A stretch of 64,000 nt of DNA from Thermodesulfovibrio aggregans (lineage in GTDB: Bacteria > Nitrospirota > Thermodesulfovibrionia > Thermodesulfovibrionales > Thermodesulfovibrionaceae): positions 634,776 to 698,775 of the forward strand of contig NZ_BCNO01000001.1 in NCBI RefSeq assembly GCF_001514535.1, read 5' to 3'. Below, piece by piece: positions 33,950-60,620 of this stretch. The translations under genes were made by a program, and so were the position numbers. The notes under the pieces were generated by a model. It made no database searches. It saw nothing but the letters and a program-made list of their open reading frames with translations, and was not told the DNA's origin. Each line of letters begins with the position of its first letter. The stretch's first letter is position 1.

Positions 33950-34183
33950 TTACGAATTAATTTTTGAAAGGATTTCATCAACAACTTCGTCAACGGTTTC
34001 ATCAACTCCATCAGGATTAACAAGATTTTTTTCGATAAATTCCTGAATGTCAACTGGTCTAAATCTTATGAGTTTATTGTTAATTTTTATGTGTGGAATT
34101 TGTTTCCTTTCAACCCAGTAATAAATAGTTCTTTTATTAACTTTAAGCATTCTCGCAACATCATCTGTTGTTAAAAGTTCCAT
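33950..34183 (-). CDS. Excisionase-like helix-turn-helix protein, copy A
   Basis: 77 aa. The N-terminal half LLTTDDVARMLKVNKRTIYYWVERKQIPHIKI is a MerR/AlpA-type winged helix (HTH_17) used by excisionases and element regulators. The acidic tail (GVDETVDEVVDEILSKI) is unusual. It lies directly upstream of the integrase with the start behind AAGGAGG, the normal xis-int order. It probably controls directionality or expression of integration. Confidence 0.8.
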   Translation of the reverse strand: MELLTTDDVARMLKVNKRTIYYWVERKQIPHIKINNKLIRFRPVDIQEFIEKNLVNPDGVDETVDEVVDEILSKINS

Positions 34184-34505
34184 AAATTTTACCTCCTTCT
34201 TTTATATAACATATTGACTGTTTTTCAAATTTTTTGATTTCAATTAAATTTTTTATAAATTCGGCTTCAAGCCAACGAGGAGTTTGGCTCTGGATATTGC
34301 TTGATATCAGGGCTCTATCGCAAGATGATCTGTAAGGCTTATCGATCATTAATGCTGAATAGATATCTGCCAATGATAAAATTTTATTTGCGATAGAAAA
34401 TTTTTCTCTGGTAAGTACTTTATGGTCTCTAGGTCCATCATGACTTTCATATTGGTGTTCAACAACGCTATATGTACTATGTAAACAAACCCTGTAAATC
34501 TTCAT
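34161..34505 (-). pseudogene. HD-GYP domain fragment, copy A
   Basis: The reading frame contains a degenerate second half of an HD-GYP domain: HQYESHDGPRDHK in place of HHExxDGxGYP, followed by ANKILSLADIYSALMIDKPYRSS. The first half with the HD motif is missing and the GYP is altered, so no phosphodiesterase activity is expected. A one-base difference from copy B (five versus four T near 34216) moves its C-terminus into the excisionase start. It may be cargo captured by the element. Confidence 0.6.
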
Positions 34506-37665: not shown

Positions 37666-37968
37666 TTATATAACATATTGACTGTTTTCAAATTTTTTGA
37701 TTTCAATTAAATTTTTTATAAATTCGGCTTCAAGCCAACGAGGAGTTTGGTTCTGGATATTGCTTGATAAAAGGGCTCTATCGCAAGATGATCTGTAAGG
37801 CTTATCGATCATTAATGCTGAATAGATATCTGCCAATGATAAAATTTTATTTGCGATAGAAAATTTTTCTCTGGTAAGTACTTTATGGTCTCTAGGTCCA
37901 TCATGACTTTCATATTGGTGTTCAACAACGCTATATGTACTATGTAAACAAACCCTGTAAATCTTCAT
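37666..37968 (-). pseudogene. HD-GYP domain fragment, copy B
   Basis: 100 codons with the same degenerate half HD-GYP domain as copy A. It stops upstream of the excisionase start because of a one-base difference near 37689. Confidence 0.55.
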
Positions 37969-38725: not shown

Positions 38726-39883
38726 ATGAAAATCAGAGGATTTATTAGACCTGATGGAGGAGTAGGTATAAGAAATCATTTACTGATAATACCTACGGTT
38801 GTTTGCGCCTCAACCGTGGCTGAACGAATAGCATCTTTTGTGGAAGGAGCAATATCACTTGCTAATCAGCATGGTTGTTGTCAGATTGGTGCAGATTTAG
38901 CTTTGACTGAAAATGTATTGATAGGATTGGGTAAAAATCCCAATGTAGGAGCAGTGCTGGTTGTTTCTCTTGAATGCGGAGGTGTTTCTGGAGAAAGAAT
39001 GGTTGAAGAAATTTCAAAAACCGGCAAGCCTGTTGAATACGTAGGAATTCAGAAAGCGGGAGGATCATTAAAAGCTATAGATAATGGAACGAGATTGGCT
39101 CAAAAATTAGCTCAGGAGTTGTTAAAAATGGAAAGAGAGGATGCCGATATATCTGAAATAATTTTATCTGTAGAATGCGGTGGCTCTGATACAACCTCAG
39201 GATTGGCTTCAAATCCTGTTGCAGGATATGTTGTAGATAAAATTATTGAGCTTGGTGCAACAGGGATGTTTTCTGAAACTACAGAGGTTATAGGAGCTGA
39301 ACACCTTCTGGCTAAAAGAGCTGTATCTAAAGAAGTAGCTGAAAAATTAATTGAGATGGTTAAAAAAGTTGAAGAAAAAGCCAAGACATTAGGTGTAGAC
39401 ATACGCGGTGGTCAACCTACTCCAGGAAACATAGAAGGAGGAATCAGTACAATAGAGGAAAAATCCTTAGGAGCTATCTATAAAGGTGGAACTAAACCAT
39501 TACAGGGAGTTCTGGATTACGGAGAAAAACCTTTTGGAAAAGGATTGTACTTCATGGATACGCCAGGCCAGGACATTGAATCTATAACTGGTATGACTGC
39601 TGGTGGTTCACAGGTTGTTATTTTTACCACAGGAAGAGGCACACCCACAGGTTCTCCTATTGCTCCTGTTATTAAAATAACTGGTAATCCTGAAACTTAT
39701 AAATTGATGGAAGACAATATTGATTTTTATTGTGGCACCATAATAGAAGGAATAGAGAGCATAGAAGAAGCAGGAGAAAGATTGTTTAAACTTATGATAG
39801 AGGTTATAAATGGGAGATTAACAAAGGCAGAGGCTTTAAAACATAGAGAATTTGGTATGTTTAAGCTGGTTTCTACCTTTTAA
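38726..39883 (+). CDS. UxaA/SuyB-type lyase large subunit
   Basis: 385 aa of the UxaA C-terminal family: GFIRPDGGVGIRNHLLIIPTVVCAS at the start, QHGCCQIGADL near residue 50, LSVECGGSDTTSGLASNPV near 150 and GGSQVVIFTTGRGTPTGSP near 290. Members are iron-dependent dehydratases of sugar acids or, when split into 90- and 390-aa subunits, sulfolactate lyases that release sulfite. In a sulfite-reducing organism the second is attractive, but sequence alone cannot decide. A truncated TrpF-like ORF follows. Confidence 0.82.
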   Translation: MKIRGFIRPDGGVGIRNHLLIIPTVVCASTVAERIASFVEGAISLANQHGCCQIGADLALTENVLIGLGKNPNVGAVLVVSLECGGVSGERMVEEISKTGKPVEYVGIQKAGGSLKAIDNGTRLAQKLAQELLKMEREDADISEIILSVECGGSDTTSGLASNPVAGYVVDKIIELGATGMFSETTEVIGAEHLLAKRAVSKEVAEKLIEMVKKVEEKAKTLGVDIRGGQPTPGNIEGGISTIEEKSLGAIYKGGTKPLQGVLDYGEKPFGKGLYFMDTPGQDIESITGMTAGGSQVVIFTTGRGTPTGSPIAPVIKITGNPETYKLMEDNIDFYCGTIIEGIESIEEAGERLFKLMIEVINGRLTKAEALKHREFGMFKLVSTF

Positions 39884-42755: not shown

Positions 42756-45700
42756 TTAGAAACTATACCTCAAAATCGCCTTTCCAGTGTAAGAGCTGTA
42801 GTCGGAGTTAAAGTCTGCCGAACCAGAGACCTCAAAATTCCATCTCTTATTGTAAATGTAATTCAACCCCACATTCACTCCATAGGTAGTATCACCAATG
42901 CTTCTCTTGACCTTGGTTGTAGTATCAGCCACAGTCACTAAGGCCTCAACATCGTTGTCAGATATAGCCTGCTCAACCTTTGCCCCAAGGTAGTATCTTA
43001 CAAGGCCCGTTCCTGCTTCTGTCTCACCTACCACACTCAAAAGCCCCTTAACCTTCCACACATCTAAATCATCCGCGTTGAGCTTTCTGCTGAGGGAAGG
43101 ATTGTCAGGGACCTTTGTCCAGAAACTATCCGTTTTGTGATAACTATAGCTCAATCCAATCTGAGGCACAAGCTTTACCTTTTGACCAAAAACATATCCT
43201 CCCATAGCCTCAACTCTGTATCCGTTAGAGTCGAAAGAAGCTGTTTCTTTCAAATCATAATTAAGACCAGTCTTTCCGCTGTAGTCATTGTTTGCCTTGT
43301 AGGCAAGGCCTGATAACCTGAAGATATAGGGTTTTGGATTGTAGATAAAGTTAAATCCTCCAAACCAGTTGTCCTGATCAAGGTTATCTGCCACTCTAAC
43401 AGTGTAGTTAAGATCATTCTTAAGGTAGCCACCAAAGACCTCAAGTCCTGCCCCCTGAGTGAGCTTTAAACCAAGCCCCATGGCAAGCCCGTAGGAGTTG
43501 CCTTTGAATCCAAGGTCTTTGGCCTCAATTCTTGTATAAAGAGGCATGAGCCAGAAAATTCCCTTCTGCCCAGCCATTGAGCCTCCAAGGCTTGCATAGC
43601 CAGCATCACTAAAGGCGCTTGAAGCAAGCATAACCGGTCTTTCTCCCTTAACAAAGAAGTTAAAAAAAGGTGATGCATCCATAAGCATAGCACCAACAAC
43701 AGAGGTTGTGCCAATATCATTAGCTACCACTGAACCTACAATCGGTGCTAAATCTTGCTGAGGTGTAGCCTGATAGGTAAAGATTACAGCAGAATCTGCA
43801 CCCAGGGAAGTGGCATTATACCAGTTGACCAGTATAGATGGATTGGAATAGCCCCTCTCAAGGCCTCCCCATTGCCCGGTCACATTTCCACTTTCCTCTT
43901 TTTGAATTAAATAATAAGGAACATTAAGTTTGAGATTTCTACTATCCATTCTTGCAATAAGTGTAGCATTATTGAGATCCAGAGTAGAATTACTCCCAAC
44001 ATAGATTGGTCTTGTATCAGGATTAACACCAGGTGCACCAAAGGTGATGGCAAATTTATCACTTAAAGTAACCTGAGATGAGTTAGTAATGTAAAGGGTT
44101 CTCAAATTAGAACCTGCCACATTGCTTTCAACCCAGGTATTGCCATAGTTAGAGATAGTAGCATTGGAATTTTCAATCCAGAAGACAGCTGCATTGACAT
44201 TGGTCGTATCTGCATTGGAAGGCAGATTAAGAACAACCTTCATGGTTCCATTATTGACTATATTTGCATTGGAACTATCAGAAATTTTAAGGACAGCTGC
44301 ATTAATAGTTGCGCTCTGATAATTGCTATTTACATTAACCTCTATATGACCTGTGTTATTAAAGTTACCTATACTGTATGCATACACTCCATATGCCTCT
44401 GCATTCCCACCTCTTGCATTGACTGTTATATCCCCGCTATTCGTAAAATTACCTATATTATTCCATGCCCACACTCCATACGCATAGGCCTCCCCATCTG
44501 TTGCATTGGCTGTAACGGTGATTGACCCACCCTCGGTGTTAACAAAACTATCATTTATACTGCCGGCACTCACTCCATATGCCTCTGCATTCCCACCTGT
44601 TGTATTTGCTGATGCCGTAATATTTCCGCTATTCCTAAAATTACCTATACCATTTTCCACAAACACTCCATCTACATAGGCATTACCACTTGTTGCATTA
44701 CCGCTTACTTCTATCTTACCTGTATTAACAAACTCTTCTATTGAACCACCATATACAAAAACCCCTGCCACTCCTGGATAATCTTCATTGAAATTATACA
44801 CATACTGACCTGTTGCACTGACTGTTATATCCCCGCTATTCGTAAAATTACCTATATTATCCCATGTCTCAACTCCATAGGCACTTGCCCAACTATTAGA
44901 AATAGCCCTTACCGATATGGTACCACCCGATTCATTACTAAAACTAGTTATGCCACTTTCCACAAACACTCCATCTACATAGGCATCACCACTTGTTGCA
45001 TTACCGCTTACTTCTATCTTACCTGTATTAACAAACTCTTCTATTGAATCACCATGTACAAAAACCCCTGCCACTCCTGGATAATAATAATAATAATCAT
45101 ACTCATCATATAAATAATTACCCACGGCTGATACTTTAATAGTCCCGTTATTCGTAAAATTACCTATACTGCTTGCATACACTCCATAGGCATAGGCATC
45201 TCCATCTGCTGCATCAGCTGTAACGGTGATTGACCCACTCTCGTTGTTAACAAAACTTTCATCTATACTGTATGCATACACTCCATAGGCCTCTGCATAT
45301 CCACCTGTTGCTGTTACAGTTATATTGCCGCTATTCTCAAAATTACCTACTTGATTTTCTGCATACACTCCATAGGCATAGGCATAGGCCTCCCCATCTG
45401 TTGCAGTTGCTATTGATTCTGCTTTTATATTGCCGCTATTCTCAAAATTATCTACTTGATTTTCTGCATACACTCCATAGGCATAGGCATCTCCATCTGC
45501 TGCATCAGCTGTAACGGTGATTGACCCACCCTCGTTGTTAACAAAACTTTCATCTATACTGTATGCATACACTCCATAGGCCTCTGCATATCCACCTGTC
45601 GCTGTTACACTTATATCCCCGCCTGATGTAATTGTTAAATTATTAAGAGGTCTCGCCATCTGATAATCTTCTACATTAAAATAAATTCCGTAAGCCCTAC

Positions 45701-46004
45701 CATCTTCACTCGTATTGTTAAACGTTGCATTAAGGGAAGCACCAATGGTAAGTGACTCAAAAGGAGTAGGCGGAGTATCTGTATCCTTGTCTACATAAAT
45801 TCCTGCAACTGTATATGTGTCACTATTAATGGACAAGTCAGATGAAAGCGTATATGTAGTTTCATCAGAATCTAAATATACACCAACCTCCCAAGTTTCA
45901 CTGTCGGGACCTGTTATTCGCTCGGATGCCTCTGAATTCATCGCAAAACCTAAAAAAATAAGAAAACTTAACACAAGGAACAAAAATGGACTTTTTAGTC
46001 TCAT
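42756..46004 (-). CDS. Autotransporter with repetitive beta-helix passenger (1082 aa)
   Basis: Residues 1-26 form a signal peptide ending ASERITG. The passenger (about 30-780) is made of repeated units of about 20-45 residues built on GDISVTATGGYAEAYGVYA and SIGNFTNSG patterns, rich in Ala, Gly, Asn, Tyr and without Cys, as expected for a beta-helix. The C-terminal 290 residues are an outer-membrane beta barrel (autotransporter domain) with alternating hydrophobic strands and a terminal Phe (GKAILRYSF). The protein would be displayed on the cell surface, perhaps as adhesin. DNA repeats in the passenger are nearly identical (for example 45181-45311 and 45472-45602, 291 bp apart). It is the last gene of a secreted cluster. 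Confidence 0.85.
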   Translation of the reverse strand: MRLKSPFLFLVLSFLIFLGFAMNSEASERITGPDSETWEVGVYLDSDETTYTLSSDLSINSDTYTVAGIYVDKDTDTPPTPFESLTIGASLNATFNNTSEDGRAYGIYFNVEDYQMARPLNNLTITSGGDISVTATGGYAEAYGVYAYSIDESFVNNEGGSITVTADAADGDAYAYGVYAENQVDNFENSGNIKAESIATATDGEAYAYAYGVYAENQVGNFENSGNITVTATGGYAEAYGVYAYSIDESFVNNESGSITVTADAADGDAYAYGVYASSIGNFTNNGTIKVSAVGNYLYDEYDYYYYYPGVAGVFVHGDSIEEFVNTGKIEVSGNATSGDAYVDGVFVESGITSFSNESGGTISVRAISNSWASAYGVETWDNIGNFTNSGDITVSATGQYVYNFNEDYPGVAGVFVYGGSIEEFVNTGKIEVSGNATSGNAYVDGVFVENGIGNFRNSGNITASANTTGGNAEAYGVSAGSINDSFVNTEGGSITVTANATDGEAYAYGVWAWNNIGNFTNSGDITVNARGGNAEAYGVYAYSIGNFNNTGHIEVNVNSNYQSATINAAVLKISDSSNANIVNNGTMKVVLNLPSNADTTNVNAAVFWIENSNATISNYGNTWVESNVAGSNLRTLYITNSSQVTLSDKFAITFGAPGVNPDTRPIYVGSNSTLDLNNATLIARMDSRNLKLNVPYYLIQKEESGNVTGQWGGLERGYSNPSILVNWYNATSLGADSAVIFTYQATPQQDLAPIVGSVVANDIGTTSVVGAMLMDASPFFNFFVKGERPVMLASSAFSDAGYASLGGSMAGQKGIFWLMPLYTRIEAKDLGFKGNSYGLAMGLGLKLTQGAGLEVFGGYLKNDLNYTVRVADNLDQDNWFGGFNFIYNPKPYIFRLSGLAYKANNDYSGKTGLNYDLKETASFDSNGYRVEAMGGYVFGQKVKLVPQIGLSYSYHKTDSFWTKVPDNPSLSRKLNADDLDVWKVKGLLSVVGETEAGTGLVRYYLGAKVEQAISDNDVEALVTVADTTTKVKRSIGDTTYGVNVGLNYIYNKRWNFEVSGSADFNSDYSSYTGKAILRYSF

Positions 46005-50283: not shown

Positions 50284-50904
50284 TTAAATTAACCCTTTTG
50301 TCTTTAATATTTCTTGAATTTCAATATTACTGTATCTGAGATACATTGCAGTAGTATTTAGTGATGCATGCCCAAGCAGTTGTTGAACTGCGGTTACAGG
50401 AATTCCTGCACGGAGAAGTTCTATTGCACGGGTGTGTCTTAAAACATGTGGATGGGAAATATTTTCTGGGATGTTAGCTTTTTTACAAATTTCTCTGAAG
50501 ACAACAAAAAAATTGTTTCTTTTGACTTTAAAAACCTTACCTTCCAGTATGGGGTAAAGCTTTGTAAATCTCAGATACTCAGAAATAACTCTGTCGGGAA
50601 CAGGAACAATTCTGTATTGATTCTTTTTTCTGGCACTTCTTTTAAGAGTGATGAGTCTAACTGTAGATGCTCTGAAATCTATATCTCTTGTTTCATCTAT
50701 ATTCAGAACTTCAGAAATTCTTGCCCCTGTATAACGAAGCAAAAGAAAAATCAGCCAGTATCTACCCCTTAAAACACTTCGTTTTTCATCAAACCATTTC
50801 TGAAACTCAAAGGTGAGCCTGTTAAGTTCATCTTCTGTAAGATGATAAATTTCTTCCTGTACAGGAACAGAATTGATAAAGTTTCCTTTTTTGGGTACAA
50901 GCAT
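50284..50904 (-). CDS. Small tyrosine recombinase (XerC/D-like catalytic domain)
   Basis: 206 aa, shorter than XerC/D (about 300) and with only a minimal N-terminal domain. All catalytic residues are visible: Arg in TGARISEVL, Lys in TLKRSARKK, HVLRHTRAI, LLGHASLN and Tyr in TTAMYLRYS. Recombinases of this size resolve plasmids, invert segments or move cassettes. A palindrome with loxP geometry lies about 80 bases upstream, and another inverted repeat overlaps the start codon, suggesting autoregulation. Confidence 0.85.
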   Translation of the reverse strand: MLVPKKGNFINSVPVQEEIYHLTEDELNRLTFEFQKWFDEKRSVLRGRYWLIFLLLRYTGARISEVLNIDETRDIDFRASTVRLITLKRSARKKNQYRIVPVPDRVISEYLRFTKLYPILEGKVFKVKRNNFFVVFREICKKANIPENISHPHVLRHTRAIELLRAGIPVTAVQQLLGHASLNTTAMYLRYSNIEIQEILKTKGLI

Positions 50905-52274: not shown

Positions 52275-53322
52275 ATGACAAAATACCAAGAAGGACAAAT
52301 AGTTTTTTTGAATCCAGAAACTCTTGAACCACATCCTGCGTTGAAAATTTTAGAAGAAAATCAAATCTTTGCTGTTACTGAAGAAGACATACAAAAGTTG
52401 ATGATTTCAATAGCAGAGATGAATATTTTGCAACCGATTTTGGTTACAGAGGAAAATGGAAAGATTTATCGTATTGCAGGAAACCGACGAAGAAGAAATT
52501 GTCCAAGCATGGATTGCTGAAAACTTTTCCAGAAAAAATTACACAAGTACTGAACAAATTGCAATTTTAGAAAAAATAGACCATATCTTTTTTAAAAAGA
52601 ATGAAATTCTCCCTTATCTTTCTGAAATTGCCCAAAAACTAAATCTACCTGAAGAAAAATTAAAGCATTTACAAAATTTTCCTGAGTTAATAGAAAAAAT
52701 AAAAGAACTTTTAGAGCAAAAAGAGAATGTACAAGTTGAAGTCGTAAAAGAAATCATAGAAAAAAAAGTGGTTGACGAAAAATTAATTCAAGAAAAAAAA
52801 GAACTTGAATATCAAATAAGTTCTATTTTAAAAGAAAAAGAAAATTTAAACAACCAGCTCAATGAAACAAAAAAACAACTTGAAATTCTTAAAGAAAAAA
52901 TTGAACAAAAAGAATTAGAGCTTAAAAATTTCAAGCCAGACGAAGAATTAAAAAAAGAGGTAGAAGAACTTAAAAACCAAATCAAAATTCTATCTCATAA
53001 CAAAGAACTTTTAGAAAAAAATCTTAAGGATAAAGATGCTATCATTGCTGAAAAGGAAAGAGAAAAATTGAAACTTTATGAAGAACTTTCTGAAAAAATT
53101 GAAATGGTTAATAATCAGATGTTTGAATACACTGTTACAATTATTAAATCTCTTTTAACAGATGTAGAAGAGACTTTAACAAAGTTTGAGAATTGTTTTT
53201 CTGCAATAAAAGATAAAGAAAACATGCTTGTGATTCATGATCACTTCCAGAAAATCAAGGATATTATTATTAATAAACTCAACAAAGTAGAGGAATCAAT
53301 TATAGAGAAATTTCCGGATTAA
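52275..53322 (+). pseudogene. ParB-like protein with C-terminal coiled coil, split by an internal deletion
   Basis: The first frame (52275-52520) holds the ParB N-terminal segments LEPHPAL, SIAEMNILQPILVTEENG and IAGNRR, then ends. The second frame (open from about 52470 to 53322) resumes with DEEEIVQAWIAENFSRKNYTS, an HTH-like LSEIAQKLNLPEEKLKHL, then a long coiled coil (residues about 80-230). The about 20 residues normally between the GNRR and the EN-motif are missing and the frame shifts there, so a deletion between similar GAAACCGACGAAG-type sequences is likely. The second part could be expressed alone from ATG 52456. Confidence 0.65.
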
Positions 53323-53840: not shown

Positions 53841-53846
53841 TGGCGA

Positions 53847-53929
53847 CCGTATCATAACATGTCGCTCACCGTACCATAACATGTCGCCACCGTATCATAA
53901 CATGTCATACTCCGTATCATAATATGTCG
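53847..53929. repeat. Iteron-like array, four 18-bp units at 21-22 bp spacing
   Basis: Units start at 53847, 53869, 53890 and 53912, all close to CCGTATCATAACATGTCG. Spacing of two helical turns puts all units on one face of the DNA, as in replication iterons or ParR-binding centromeres. The neighbours are an AT-rich segment on the left and the 3' end of the Rep-like gene on the right. Confidence 0.85.
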
Positions 53930-54139: not shown

Positions 54140-54970
54140 TTATTCAGGCAAAAAAACTGATAAATTGCTTTTGTAGAAAATTGTGATTTGATTTTTTTCT
54201 TGTTTGACGATGATATTGAAATTTTCTTCAAGATAATTTTTGTATTTTAAGATTTCTGCTTTTAATCTTTGCTTATGTCGTTCTGATATATTTTCGTAGC
54301 CAAGATAATACATTATGTCTTCAAGTTTCATATTGCATTGCTGATGACTCATGCAGAACCTTATAACTGATTTAACAAAATCGCTACTAACATCCACGAT
54401 GGCTTTTATAGTTTGTTTATCGAGATAGATAACAGTATCGTGTTCGTAAAGTTTTGTGAATTCTTCTGAGAAAACCACAACATAGTAACAACCTTCTCCA
54501 AATGTTCCTTCTTTTATATTTTCTTTTTTAAATTTCTCTGAATATCCAAATTTGTTGATGATGTTAGAGTGAATTTTATAGATTCTATCGTTTTTAGTGT
54601 ATTGAAGTTTGATTATTGTTGACATCATGTCATCAAGTTTTTGAGATAACCACTTATGATGTGTTATTTTTTTGTGTCCAAGAAATTTTAAGACTTCCCG
54701 AATGTCAAAAACAATGAACATTCTTCCTTCTAAAGTTTTGCCTTTTTTGATAGAACAGGTTGCCATAGCATCAAGAATATCCTTGTGCGTTTGGCTTAAT
54801 TCTTTTGAAAGCTCTATATTTCCAAATATAGTTTCAAACTTTGTTTTTTTACAAAACAAAGGGAGACGCTGTTGATGAACAGTAGAAACAGGTTTTTTAG
54901 GAACTTTTGGTTTCATATTAAATATTATATTTTTAGAAGGACATTCCATCTTTATTAGTAATCCAAGCAC
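54140..54970 (-). CDS. Putative plasmid replication initiator (Rep)
   Basis: 276 aa from GTG 54970, with later ATGs at 54949 and 54916 possible. The segments ELSQTHKDILDAMATCSIKK, VFDIREVLKFLGH and WLSQKLDDMMSTIIKLQ suggest a first winged helix, and KAIVDVSSDFVKSVIRFCMSH with DIMYYLGYENISERHKQRLK a second, as in Rep_3/TrfA-like initiators. The assignment rests on this pattern plus the nearby iterons. Transcription runs towards the iterons. An IS21-like end sits just upstream. Confidence 0.55.
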   Translation of the reverse strand: MLGLLIKMECPSKNIIFNMKPKVPKKPVSTVHQQRLPLFCKKTKFETIFGNIELSKELSQTHKDILDAMATCSIKKGKTLEGRMFIVFDIREVLKFLGHKKITHHKWLSQKLDDMMSTIIKLQYTKNDRIYKIHSNIINKFGYSEKFKKENIKEGTFGEGCYYVVVFSEEFTKLYEHDTVIYLDKQTIKAIVDVSSDFVKSVIRFCMSHQQCNMKLEDIMYYLGYENISERHKQRLKAEILKYKNYLEENFNIIVKQEKNQITIFYKSNLSVFLPE

Positions 54971-56154: not shown

Positions 56155-57396
56155 TTATTTTCGTTCAACATATTCAACATATATTTTATATCCTCTTGCA
56201 TTTGCAAATTGAGGATTATCTGATATATATACTCCATCAACTTTATCATTCAAATAAACTGCACCACCACCAGTTAAAAGTACTTGATCAATTTTATATC
56301 CATTGTTTTTTAGTTCTATCACATAATCTTTAAGTCTGCTCTCTATTTCTGGTAAATAAAATCTACTAATATATTCTTGAACATCAAACTTATATTCTTT
56401 TCCAAAATATGTAAATTTACCATCTTTTAAAAGCAAATCTACATAAACATCATTAATAAAATCGCTATATTTAACTGTGAACTCATCAATTATTTTGTTA
56501 TATAAAATTTCCATTCCTGCTGGATAACTTCTAGACATTTTAGAAATATATACACCATCTTTAATGTAAACCATATCAAGAGTATAGTAGCCAATATCAA
56601 TAACAATTGTATCTTTTCTGGCTATATCACTGTATTTCCATGCAAAATCAATATATGCTCCTAATCCTTGAGGCAAAAATTCAATTTTTTCAGGGATTTC
56701 AATTTTATTTCCATTTGTTTTTATTTCCAATGTCTTCAACTGATACTTTAAAAGAGATATTTTTTTAGAATCATACACAGAAGGTGGTAACCCTAATCCT
56801 ATTCCTTTTATTGCTATCCCTTGTTTGACTAACTTATTGATACAATATCCTATAATTGCGAAGTAAGGTTCTGTCCCTACAAAATCTTCAGTCAATTTTC
56901 TTCTCGGTGAAGCATCAGGACCTACTAAATAATTATTGCCATTAACACTAATAACAGAAAAACGATCATTAAAGACTTTTTCAGTATGAATATAAGGCTC
57001 AACCAAAGTCTTAAAACAAAAATCCTTATCATTTAGAGAAATTTTGGTATAAAGAGAACCTATGTCAATACCCACATATTCTCCCTCTTTATCGTTAAGA
57101 TTATCTTGTTTTTCTTCTTTGATTTCTAAAGCTTCTGAAGTATTAAGAAACCTTTTATCATTGAGATTTAAATTTTTTTCTGGTGAACTTTGACTATTTA
57201 TTAGCTCTGTTGAGATTCGACTTTTTATTGTCTTTCTTAAGTTTTCATCTTTACTTATAATTTCTTCATAAGCATAATGACTTCTTATAACATCTACTAT
57301 AAATTTACCTCGCAATGTTTGGGGAATTAAATCTAAAATTTCAATTACATCGTTGTGCATTTCTGAATTCAGAATAAAAAAATATAATTTTCTCAT
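56155..57396 (-). CDS. Actin-like plasmid segregation ATPase with fused N-terminal ribbon-helix-helix (ParR-ParM fusion)
   Basis: 413 aa, about 100 more than ParM-type actins. Residues 1-45 read RKLYFFILNSEMHNDVIEIL then DLIPQTLRGKFIVDVIRSHY, the strand-helix-helix pattern of ParR/StbB centromere-binding proteins. A charged linker (about 46-105) follows, then the actin fold: phosphate-1 YVGIDIGSLYTKISL (about 107-121), phosphate-2 IVIDIGYYTLDMVYI (about 262-276) and adenosine motif VLLTGGGAVYL (about 373-383). No separate parR gene is next to it. ParM filaments push plasmid copies apart while ParR links them to the centromere; here both functions would be in one chain. ATG behind AGGAGG. Confidence 0.75.
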   Translation of the reverse strand: MRKLYFFILNSEMHNDVIEILDLIPQTLRGKFIVDVIRSHYAYEEIISKDENLRKTIKSRISTELINSQSSPEKNLNLNDKRFLNTSEALEIKEEKQDNLNDKEGEYVGIDIGSLYTKISLNDKDFCFKTLVEPYIHTEKVFNDRFSVISVNGNNYLVGPDASPRRKLTEDFVGTEPYFAIIGYCINKLVKQGIAIKGIGLGLPPSVYDSKKISLLKYQLKTLEIKTNGNKIEIPEKIEFLPQGLGAYIDFAWKYSDIARKDTIVIDIGYYTLDMVYIKDGVYISKMSRSYPAGMEILYNKIIDEFTVKYSDFINDVYVDLLLKDGKFTYFGKEYKFDVQEYISRFYLPEIESRLKDYVIELKNNGYKIDQVLLTGGGAVYLNDKVDGVYISDNPQFANARGYKIYVEYVERK

Positions 57397-57668
57397 GTTA
57401 ATTCCTCCTTTATGTCTTTATAATAAATATTAAAATTAAACCTTGGTAATTTATCGTCAAGTGCTAAAATTTGCGCTCATAATGTTTGTAATATTTAAAT
57501 TAATTTTCTACTACAAAGTAGGCTAGGAAATGAAAAATCTTAATCAAAGTTTTTTCATATCCCTAAATGAGGTTTTAAGACATTTATAGGCTCTGTAAAC
57601 TTTACAAAAAGGCAGTTGATTAAAAAAAATAAGAGATTTAGTTTTTGACTCAACAACTTAACTATGTC
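57397..57668. other. Upstream region of the fusion gene
   Basis: A type II partition centromere would be expected here, but I see no clear tandem repeats. A CTAC/GTAG inverted repeat (57519-57532) and several AT-rich stretches are the only structure. Confidence 0.4.
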
Positions 57669-57669
57669 T

Positions 57670-57707
57670 AAAAAGAGAAAGGGAGAAAATCTCCCTTTCT
57701 CTTTTTT
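57670..57707. terminator. Strong bidirectional terminator
   Basis: AAAAGAGAAAGGGAGA and TCTCCCTTTCTCTTTT arms around AAA, with A and T tracts on both sides. It isolates the fusion gene from the small-protein gene to the right. Confidence 0.9.
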
Positions 57708-57878
57708 AATTTATTATTTCATTGTTTTCTTAACATCCTAAATCATTATTAAAGTTTCTTTAGCCTTTTTTAAGCTTCCTCTAATGCTTTTTTCATGAAA
57801 TATTCGCCAGTCTCTCTCATCTGCTGGATTAAAATTTCCGTTATTTTCTTTATAATTTCTTCAATCTATCTTTTCCTA

Positions 57879-58127
57879 TCATTGTTCATAAGTCCTCTCT
57901 TTCTTTATTTTTCTATATCTTTCTATATCTATTATGCTACATGTATAGTTAATTGGAGATGTTAAAATCATCTTTCTTACTATGCTCATTATTTCTTTTT
58001 TCTCATCACCCTCTATTTTTCTGCCATCTCCTGCATATAGCTCAGATTCATCGGTATCAGACCATATATTCAAAAGTTCTGCAAGGTCATGTCCCTGTAA
58101 ATTATTTTTATTAGTTTTTGCCCTCAT
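57879..58127 (-). CDS. Small acidic protein, paralogue 1
   Basis: 82 aa, ATG behind AAGGAGG. The central LAELLNIWSDTDESELYAGD, then GRKIEGDEKKEIMSIVRKMIL aligns with the protein at 58370-58558 (LADFLLAW..., ...GERRKKIMEFIKDQVL). The family is unknown to me. The acidic, helical character and tight own regulation suggest a regulator, antitoxin or anti-host-factor protein. Confidence 0.65.
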   Translation of the reverse strand: MRAKTNKNNLQGHDLAELLNIWSDTDESELYAGDGRKIEGDEKKEIMSIVRKMILTSPINYTCSIIDIERYRKIKKERTYEQ

Positions 58128-58307
58128 TGCAACCTCCTTCTTTTGTATTGTTTATTTTATTGCCTTTTTTCTTCTTGTCAAAGATCAAATATATTAGTTT
58201 TAGTATAAAAAATAGGTTTTTAATTTTTTTCTCAATTAAAATTAACCTTTTTTACGAAACTTCAAAAACCCTTTAAAAAAGTGATTAAATTAGTATTTAA
58301 TACCAAC

Positions 58308-58357
58308 AAACCTTCTAACAAAGGATTCCCTGTTTAGAGTTTCCCTTGTTAGAAGGT
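58308..58357. terminator. Long hairpin between the two small paralogues
   Basis: AACCTTCTAACAA and TTGTTAGAAGGTT arms with 24 bases between them, followed by T8 on the plus strand. It lies just past the stop of paralogue 2 (minus strand). Its T tract suits plus-strand termination, but the stem could act on both. Confidence 0.7.
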
Positions 58358-58369
58358 TTTTTTTATCTT

Positions 58370-58558
58370 CTACGCATCATATCTTAATCTGCTATTCAAC
58401 ACTTGGTCTTTTATGAATTCCATTATCTTTTTTCTTCTTTCTCCTGTAATTAATTCTCCATTCTCATCTACAATCTCTATATCAGGATTATCAGGGTCCC
58501 AAGCTAACAGGAAATCGGCTAACTCATCATCAATATTCCCCATGTTGTTTTTACTCAT
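58370..58558 (-). CDS. Small acidic protein, paralogue 2
   Basis: 62 aa, pI clearly acidic (DPDNPDIEIVDENGELITG). Shares the pattern LAxxLxxW, acidic run, GxxIxGxxxKxIM with paralogue 1. Start behind GGAGG. A perfect palindrome lies in the leader, so the gene is probably repressed by a DNA-binding protein of the element. Confidence 0.65.
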   Translation of the reverse strand: MSKNNMGNIDDELADFLLAWDPDNPDIEIVDENGELITGERRKKIMEFIKDQVLNSRLRYDA

Positions 58559-58581
58559 CCATTCCTCCTTTTTTGTTGATT

Positions 58582-58600
58582 AATTTGCCTAAGGCAAATT
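58582..58600. promoter_or_regulatory. Operator-like palindrome upstream of paralogue 2
   Basis: AATTTGCCT and AGGCAAATT arms around a single A, between a minus-strand TATACT -10 candidate and the ribosome binding site. Confidence 0.55.
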
Positions 58601-58774
58601 CCTATAAATTAGTATAACCTCATTGTCTTTTATTTTTTTCCCGATTAACTGTATCCTGATATGCCGGATAAGGAATATTTTTTTATCATTTTTTGTTAAA
58701 AGGGTAAATATAAATATTATTTTTCTGAAAAGTATTTTTTGGCACTTTTTTGCAAAAAAATTTTTTATTCGCAG

Positions 58775-58893
58775 TATGCAAAATGAAATTGTCATTTTAC
58801 ATATAGTATTGCAAAATGAAATTCAACATTTCGTATTTTCAAAGGTTTGTATAATATTTTTTATATGCAAAATGAGCATATTCATTTTGCATA
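58775..58893. promoter_or_regulatory. Three tandem operator-like palindromes
   Basis: Boxes at 58775-58803, 58807-58836 and 58862-58893 share GCAAAATGA plus its inverse. The third is the most perfect (ATGCAAAATGA and TCATTTTGCAT around GCATAT). The start codon of the next gene is about 40 bases after the last box. Stepwise palindromes like these are typical of phage or plasmid repressor-controlled promoters. Confidence 0.65.
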
Positions 58894-58929
58894 TAGTAGA
58901 TAATAAAATGAAATGGAGGATGAAAAAAA

Positions 58930-59301
58930 ATGAAAAATTTTAGAATTCTTACTACTGAACTTGAGGCTATTAAGCATCAGATGGAACAACTCTGTAACTT
59001 GTTTAGAGCTGAATTTGGAGGTGATGGATTAAAGAATAACAAGTTAGTGCTTAAACTTGCTAATTGTGCAAATAAGAAATGTCCTTATTGTCCTCATGGT
59101 CCTTATTGGTATAGAGCATTCTTTAATACTCGTACACGCAAGTTTATGTTTAAATACATTGGTTCATCATTAAAGAAGAGCATGTTAAAAGGGAATGAAA
59201 TGCAACATTGGGATAGGCTTAAGTTTTATGATAATGAGATAAAAAGGCTGAAAAAGGAAAAGCAACTTATTATAAAAGAACTCAAGAAGTTAGAAAAGTG
59301 A
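58930..59301 (+). CDS. DUF6788-like small Cys-containing protein
   Basis: 123 aa. The central CANKKCPYCPHGPYWYRAFFN, then KYIGSSLKK and a basic coiled C-terminus fit a small family I recall as DUF6788, with a CxxxxCxxCxxGPYxY zinc-like motif, common near mobile or CRISPR-poor archaeal and bacterial loci. Function unknown. It is controlled by three palindromes. TGGAGGA precedes the ATG. Confidence 0.6.
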   Translation: MKNFRILTTELEAIKHQMEQLCNLFRAEFGGDGLKNNKLVLKLANCANKKCPYCPHGPYWYRAFFNTRTRKFMFKYIGSSLKKSMLKGNEMQHWDRLKFYDNEIKRLKKEKQLIIKELKKLEK

Positions 59302-59302
59302 A

Positions 59303-59541
59303 AATTCTCACTGAAAATTGACCCACTTTTACAAATTAAAGGGGTAAGAATTTTTCTCAAAATTGGGGTGCAGTACAGGTGTCGAATGAACTTAAGAAGA
59401 AGGAGATATTTATTTCCTTTTGTAAATTTCTTGTGGACAATACTTTACTCTATCAGTAAAGAAAAATCAACGGGTTGTAGCCACACCACATAATCAAAGA
59501 ATGCTTGACAATCAATTATTTCTAATGTTATTGTTTTAAAT
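59303..59541. mobile_element. Junction of two IS remnants
   Basis: AAAATTCTCACTGAAAATTG followed by ACCCAC (IS21-like end) is followed at 59355 by TTCTCAAAATTGGGGTGCAG (the string also found at 34985). No transposase genes. This marks the right limit of the accessory block. Confidence 0.55.
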
Positions 59542-60123
59542 ATGAACAAAATAGATTTTTCAGATGAAATATCAATGCGTATTCTTGAACATATTCATGA
59601 AAACCCAACAATTACTCAAAGAGACCTTGCATCAAAGCTTGGCATAGCTCTTGGACTTACAAACTCATACATAAAACGACTTTACAAAAAAGGCTGTATA
59701 AAGATTAAGAATCTCGATGGGAAAAGATTAAAATATATCCTCACACCAAAGGGATTTGTTGAAAAGGCACGTCTTACCTGTAATTACATGGCAAGGTCAT
59801 TTAACTATTTCAGAGAAATTAAACAAAAAATAGACCAGACATACAACGCTATGATTGAATCAGGAATAAACAAAATCGTTCTATGGGGTGATGGAGAGCT
59901 TGCCGAAGTCTGCATAGTTTCATTAAAGGGACTTCCTATCACCATTTCTGGAATAGTCGGATTTAACGAAGACAGGAAAAAGATTTTCAACTACACAGTC
60001 TATACAAAGGATGAAATAAAAAACATAGAATTTGATGCAGTTCTTGTAGCAACCTTTGATGAACGCGAGATTGCTCAATTAAAAGACATCGATAAAAAGG
60101 TTTACTATCTATGGCAGAGCTGA
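59542..60123 (+). CDS. Winged-helix regulator of a polysaccharide locus
   Basis: 193 aa. The N-terminal 75 residues form a MarR/HTH_24-type winged helix (ILEHIHENPTITQRDLASKL followed by GIALGLTNSYIKRLYKKGCI). The C-terminal part (VLWGDGELAEVCIVSLKGLP) resembles a nucleotide-sugar or oligomerisation module that accompanies EPS-associated regulators. It overlaps the NusG-like gene by 13 bases. It probably controls the downstream sugar genes. Confidence 0.8.
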   Translation: MNKIDFSDEISMRILEHIHENPTITQRDLASKLGIALGLTNSYIKRLYKKGCIKIKNLDGKRLKYILTPKGFVEKARLTCNYMARSFNYFREIKQKIDQTYNAMIESGINKIVLWGDGELAEVCIVSLKGLPITISGIVGFNEDRKKIFNYTVYTKDEIKNIEFDAVLVATFDEREIAQLKDIDKKVYYLWQS

Positions 60124-60620
60124 CATTAAGCTGGTACTGTATATATGTAAAGTCAAGGCATGAGTTTAAGGTATCTGAGAGGCTTTCAAAATTGGGGATA
60201 GAGGTCTTTTTACCTGCTGTTGAAAAGCTTAGAAAATGGAAGGACAGAAAAAAGCTTGTCAAATTCCCGCTTTTTCCTGGATATCTCTTTGTTAACATTG
60301 AAAAAAGCTATGAATTAATACTCAGGGTGTTAAAGACACCAGGGGTTGTATGTTTCATAAAGAATGCCCTTGGAGAGCCTGAACCTGTTCCTGAGGAGCA
60401 GATAATACCGTTGAAAAAAGCAATAGAAAACAAAGTGGAAATAGACCCATATCCATACTTAAAGGAAGGGCAGAAAGTAAGAATAAAGAGTGGAGCTCTA
60501 CAGGGAGTAACAGGGATACTCAAGAGCAAAGAGAAAAAGCATTATCTTATTTTAGCGATAGATATACTTCAGAGGTCAGTAAGTGTTAGAATAGATGCCT
60601 CTGAAGTAGAACTGGTTTAA
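60111..60620 (+). CDS. NusG/RfaH-like antiterminator (UpxY type)
   Basis: 169 aa with the NGN domain (SWYCIYVKSRHEFKVSERLS, FLPAVEKLRKW, LFPGYLFVNI) and a C-terminal KOW domain (EGQKVRIKSGALQGVTGIL). It is a specialised NusG paralogue placed first in a polysaccharide operon, where such proteins let RNA polymerase read through the long leader and operon. Confidence 0.88.
   Translation: MAELTLSWYCIYVKSRHEFKVSERLSKLGIEVFLPAVEKLRKWKDRKKLVKFPLFPGYLFVNIEKSYELILRVLKTPGVVCFIKNALGEPEPVPEEQIIPLKKAIENKVEIDPYPYLKEGQKVRIKSGALQGVTGILKSKEKKHYLILAIDILQRSVSVRIDASEVELV

Follow-up and report, generated by a model that had tools for sequence, protein, structure and literature searches.

A probable natural fusion of ParR-like and ParM-like domains encoded on the chromosome of Thermodesulfovibrio aggregans

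In the ParMRC partition system of plasmid R1, ParR contacts ParM with its final 17 residues, and ParRC attaches to a single end of the filament. This end-specific binding through the C-terminal residues of ParR underlies the R1 spindle model (PMC3794156). For the chromosome-encoded ParMs Dh-cParM1 and Cb-cParM, ParR is found upstream, found downstream, or missing (PMC12270681), and the relevant sections of that paper on chromosomal ParMs do not mention a fusion. The open-access literature searched yielded no account of a natural fusion between ParR and ParM; this absence is no proof, and subscription papers were outside the scope. In the HTH-ParA ATPases, such as P1 ParA, a partition NTPase likewise carries a fused DNA-binding domain. 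P1 ParA is a Walker-type ATPase and not an actin, and a separate ParB is still present.

The window analyzed here is a stretch of 64,000 nucleotides from contig NZ_BCNO01000001.1 of Thermodesulfovibrio aggregans. The original prediction, made from the sequence alone, described, without naming a strand, a single-chain ParR-ParM at 56155-57396, with an actin fold from about residue 107 and a ParR-like strand-helix-helix pattern with an IPQ turn in residues 1-45; these three claims held. The fused gene (56155..57396, minus strand) is a single uninterrupted ORF of 413 aa with an ATG start, preceded by a good ribosome-binding site, AAAGGAGG. Residues 1-43 (57268..57396, minus) constitute a ParR-like ribbon-helix-helix (RHH) domain, as indicated by hhalign, a PDB profile search, and the AF2 topology; the second helix possibly extends to about residue 69. 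Residues 71-105 (57082..57186, minus) are a predicted disordered linker, based on a pLDDT of about 40 and the comparison with separate ParRs. Residues 106-413 (56158..57081, minus) correspond to a ParM-like actin-fold ATPase, as indicated by Pfam, PHROG, AlphaFold/Foldseek, and sequence motifs. The identification is upheld by four lines of evidence: separate orthologues, a profile match to two solved ParRs, an RHH-like topology, and the ParM fold. There is little doubt that ParR-like and ParM-like domains are fused here.

The start of the actin fold is near residues 106-109. Pfam ALP_N matches residues 109-246 (1.4e-12) and MreB-like_C matches residues 265-387 (4.9e-11), both above the cut-off, and PHROG 691 "partition protein" matches residues 107-408 (3e-35). 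AlphaFold modelled the full-length chain with a mean pLDDT of 82 and values above 90 over the greater part of the actin domain, and the first matches in a Foldseek search of this model against the PDB were pCBH ParM, pSK41 ParM, and Ta0583. Four motifs (phosphate-1, connect-1, phosphate-2, and adenosine) were checked in the actin part, and the nucleotide motifs of the window copy are all intact: DIGSLYTK, PQGLG, DIGYYTLD, and TGGGA. The protein missed the curated cut-off of NCBIfam ParM PRK13917 (41.2 bits vs 417); it is a relative of this ParM, outside that equivalog. A phmmer search of the PDB with the full protein gave Dh-cParM1 as the sole match (E 0.14). The identity as PRTRC system protein D was rejected, with TIGR03739 giving 72.8 bits against a cut-off of 214.8. 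It is likely that the window copy forms ATP-driven filaments, although this is inferred without polymerisation data.

The Pfam and NCBIfam scans assigned no named family to the N-terminal domain alone (about residues 1-48), because the domain is too short, and therefore, the case for it rests on relatives. In a genome of the same genus (G001), ParM is 310 aa long, is 53% identical, and starts exactly at the start of the actin part of the fusion, and a separate 112-aa ParR matches residues 1-109 of the fusion. The reading is not a product of chance, since an independent congeneric genome has this N-terminal sequence as a gene of its own beside ParM. An unrelated ORF of 243 aa, which has no family match, separates parR from parM in G001 (L002 2442-3173, minus). 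Two genomes of the same order, G209 and G399, encode ParR-family proteins of 82 and 75 aa, respectively, immediately upstream of ParM, and a more diverged separate parR lies directly upstream of parM in G181, of the same class. In other relatives, a small ParR-like gene was found downstream of parM.

The comparison of the two fused N-termini with the separate ParRs by hhalign gave a probability of 98.8 over 41 columns; because only two profiles were compared, the E-value lacks calibration on a database. The PDB profile searches covered 177,635 sequences. With a profile built only from the separate ParRs, the top two matches were 2jd3 (1.9e-4) and 2q2k (0.0042), which we take to be StbB, the ParR of pB171, and the ParR of pSK41, respectively. 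When the fused sequences were added, the order was the same and the scores were weaker (7.4e-4 and 0.084), and the two fused N-termini alone found no ParR in the PDB, only weak unrelated matches. A more distant member of the family, encoded on a Syntrophorhabdus contig (L044), is matched at 4.7e-8 by the NCBIfam ParR model PRK13916. P25 and R29 are invariant in the RHH alignment.

AlphaFold predicts an extended segment at residues 1-13, a helix at 15-22, a turn at 23-25 (IPQ), a helix at 26-69, and disorder at 71-105, with block-mean pLDDT of 83-96 across residues 1-60. This predicted topology follows the path that the chain takes in an RHH monomer. Foldseek with the N-terminal model alone (residues 1-105) returned nothing usable and no RHH protein; therefore, the support for the RHH domain consists of sequence profiles and predicted topology, without a fold match. 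The ParR ancestry of the N-terminus rests on more than the appearance of the domain, namely the separate neighbouring genes in relatives and the PDB profile match.

The original prediction had called for a fold search of residues 1-105 and 106-413, and for a search for the fusion in other genomes; the fold search with residues 1-105 was uninformative, and the one with the whole-protein model supported the ParM fold. It would have been refuted by another fold in residues 1-45 or by a separate parR on the same replicon; the structure prediction gave no other fold and no such gene was found. Its claim that no parR ORF is adjacent also held, and a profile search of the window genome revealed no second parR beside the fusion or elsewhere.

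Two more fusions were found, both of 382 aa, in G014 and G004. The window and G014 copies are about 41% identical. The fusions are thus present in three of the 16 genomes of the family, all in one genus, and in no further genome among the 176 searched in the order or the 396 in the phylum. Recurrence in three genomes, with an identity of about 41%, rules out a sequencing artefact. In the ParM tree, the three fused proteins are grouped (82/85) with the unfused G001 protein as their sister (99/100), and they are nested inside unfused relatives. A single fusion event is likely on the basis of the tree, but it is not proven. The scan of the genome collection with P0001 alone and the viral scans yielded no relative. 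From plasmids, 1,295 records match, and among the 40 best listed, two matches reach into residues 1-45. One of them, NZ_CP100354 (residues 4-403), was rejected as a fusion, as its annotated ParM starts later; the match of the other, NZ_CP115724, spans residues 24-403. Large frames of 420-442 aa in G256, G400, G360, and G296 are not evident fusions, their N-terminal extensions being un-ParR-like by eye, and RHH-like ORFs are found downstream of the large frames in G360 and G296.

The separate ParRs end in an aromatic/amphipathic tail (RLNISKLFGGF, GLDFKDAFSF, and NLDFGSFFK), whereas no tail-like motif was found in the linker of the fused proteins. Iteron arrays resembling parC are located upstream of parR in G001 (11-bp) and G209 (20-bp), each reached by 0/200 shuffles and the former also detected by TRF, while upstream of the window and G014 fusions no periodic repeat was above the shuffles. 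The strand face presumed to contact DNA carries R/K and S/T/G/Y at two positions in all the rest of the family, but F6 and I8 in the window copy; R6 and S8 are kept in G014 and G004. The contacts at residues 6 and 8 are assumed from general RHH knowledge, not from a model. Residues 1-45 carry a net charge of -2 in the window copy and of +1 to +5 in the other members. The window copy may or may not bind DNA sequence-specifically, the two being about equally likely in the absence of binding data. The losses in G014 and G004 (L012 and L013) are in the actin part: the connect-1 Gln of PQG is replaced with I or T (PIG/PTG), and the phosphate-2 T..D is lost (DIGYFYVN vs DIGYYTLD in the window copy). 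These fused proteins might be an ATPase-dead actin, as inferred from the lost catalytic residues. Each lineage damaged a different half of the fusion, a pattern that may fit either new roles or slow decay.

Between the window and G014 copies, the differences at the second codon position are 0.27 versus 0.49 at position 3 in the RHH domain, and 0.34 versus 0.57 in the actin part. The second position is the most conserved in both domains, and past selection is the likely interpretation. G014 and G004 differ at few sites (3 synonymous and 5 non-synonymous), and purifying selection is not evident between them.

The gene resides on a chromosomal contig of 1.28 Mb, not on a plasmid. The GC content drops to 27-31% at 50-60 kb in the window, compared with about 35% around. 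A tyrosine recombinase is encoded at 50284..50904 (minus; Phage_integrase), and a plasmid-type protein, probably a replication initiator (Rep-like), at 54140..54970 (minus). The Rep-like protein has plasmid relatives in Leptospirillum, Sulfurimonas, Nitrosophilus, Campylobacter, and Sulfuricurvum, and its gene is found in none of the 15 remaining family genomes. Four iterons, CCGTAYCATAAYATGTC, with a spacing of 22/21/22 bp (53843..53928, plus), are the only such cluster in the genome; they are located some 210 bp beyond the Rep-like gene, beside AT-rich DNA and 2.2 kb from the fusion. Because of the proximity to the Rep-like gene and AT-rich DNA, they may be the Rep origin rather than parC; the replication origin of an integrated plasmid is the likely identity, and a displaced parC remains possible. 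The Rep-like gene, the iterons, the recombinase, and the GC drop indicate that the neighbourhood is likely a plasmid-derived island.

Several other features of the window were observed. A ParB-like gene (52275-53322, plus) is apparently frame-broken: 52275-52520 encodes the ParB N-terminus (PHROG ParB, 1e-4), and the continuation, with a long coiled coil, is read in a different frame at 52456-53322. Upstream of the fusion, two tiny ORFs (57879-58127 and 58370-58558, both minus) look by eye like mutual paralogues, without a convincing family match. The par loci of G001 (L050) and the window (56155-60620) are about 13-14 kb and 2.7 kb, respectively, from a common NusG-like gene beside an exopolysaccharide region, which might reflect a shared insertion hot spot or an ancestral position. 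Two near-identical ORFs at 34161-34505 and 37666-37968 (both minus), 3.5 kb apart and resembling an HD-domain fragment by eye, are interpreted as a recent duplication. A gene similar by eye to UxaA/altronate dehydratase (38726-39883, plus) is found in no other searched genome of the genus and was likely acquired. The ORF at 42756-46004 (minus) encodes a secreted repeat protein of 1,082 aa, autotransporter-like by eye.

The best explanation is a natural single-chain fusion of the proteins of a type II (ParMRC) operon, with a covalent-tether mechanism, to which we assign a probability of roughly 0.62. The ancestral parR-parM operon lost the stop between its genes, so that a linker now connects the RHH domain with a ParM-fold ATPase, and the fused protein no longer has the tail with which a free ParR would grip ParM; these parts are shown by the sequence. 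The mechanism is inferred. RHH domains dimerise in order to fold. The RHH part would dimerise and thereby pair two actin domains, and the actin part would polymerise with ATP. The cargo DNA would be held on the filament by a covalent tether and not by a ParR ring clasping one end of it, and this tether would therefore fix the adaptor:motor ratio at 1:1 along the filament. The DNA moved, if any, would be the plasmid-derived island holding the gene, with the Rep-like gene, the iterons, and the integrase nearby.

Polymerisation, DNA binding, and segregation are shown by nothing so far. Because of F6 in the window copy and the lost catalytic residues in G014 and G004, the function is possibly altered or decaying. 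Present-day DNA segregation, without segregation or plasmid-stability data, is an inference that we lean slightly against. A functional DNA-binding domain on every filament subunit, the further claim of the original prediction, has not been demonstrated: the basic strand residue is absent, no iterons are adjacent, and a GTG at codon 108 could yield an RHH-free ParM. A bolder reading, a working single-chain DNA-segregating actin with this domain on every subunit, is rather unlikely but remains possible; if true, DNA would be carried along the filament lattice, not at a ParR-capped end, a partition geometry without a described counterpart.

The alternative that survives best is a diverged or decaying remnant, and it remains possible. 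In this case, the fusion would have arisen in a plasmid partition locus caught in the chromosome, and half of the function would since have disappeared in each lineage: the DNA-contact residues in the window copy and the ATPase site in G014 and G004. What is left would be an actin-like protein that dimerises with itself and has a different role or no role at all. It is supported by these complementary losses (F6/I8 against PIG/PTG and DIGYFYVN), by the lack of upstream iterons in both fusions examined, by the chromosomal location, by the frame-broken ParB-like gene nearby, and by the precedent of FcmB/FcmC, two plasmid partition proteins that took on a cell-shape role once integrated (PMC12645912). 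Against it, all three fused ORFs are intact, the second codon position is the most conserved at about 41% identity, as expected under selection, and the window copy keeps every nucleotide motif.

The second alternative, which is unlikely, is that two products are made and the full-length ParR-ParM caps or anchors filaments consisting mostly of RHH-free ParM translated from codon 108. Only a fraction of subunits would then carry the DNA-binding domain, and the usual end-bound geometry would be kept. In its favour, the in-frame GTG (57073..57075, minus) is located 5 nt after GAGGGAG, exactly at the ancestral parM start of the window copy. However, a start there would truncate the first actin strand (MGIDIG) at its N-terminal end, and the feature is not conserved in G014, in which codons 46-116 contain no in-frame start. 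GAGGGAG is equally explicable as a leftover ribosome-binding site from the ancestral parM, and while both a relic and a working internal start are possible, the relic is preferred. The third alternative, that the N-terminus is another kind of RHH protein (an antitoxin or CopG-like regulator) without ParR history and joined by chance, is suggested by residues 1-43 alone matching no named family and by the two fused sequences alone missing ParR in the PDB, but it is very unlikely and largely refuted by the operon evidence: the same sequence is a separate gene with a ParR-like aromatic tail beside ParM in G001, G209, and G399, iterons precede it in G001 and G209, and the best PDB matches of the separate ParRs are solved ParRs.

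The preferred reading, the single-chain fusion, places adaptor and motor in one chain and breaks the usual rule that the adaptor is only at the filament end, although DNA movement is not shown. A natural fusion without the ParM-binding tail tests the need for end-specific capture, and the clade offers comparisons between fused and unfused orthologues in one genus, with or without iterons and catalytic residues. With the ParMRC systems of R1, pB171, and pSK41, the fusion shares a ParM-fold ATPase and an RHH adaptor matching the ParRs 2jd3 and 2q2k; it differs from them in being one chain and chromosomal, without the ParM-binding C-terminal tail or an adjacent iteron array. Dh-cParM1 and Cb-cParM are similar in being chromosomal ParM-like proteins. 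FcmB/FcmC (PMC12645912) are similarly a ParM/ParR-like pair integrated in the chromosome, but they are separate proteins with a role in cell shape, and the FcmB model scores the window protein at 15.3 bits (cut-off 300). The unfused operons of G001, G209, G399, and G181 have orthologous domains and the common order of parR followed by parM, but they encode two proteins and their ParR retains the aromatic tail, with iterons upstream in G001 and G209.
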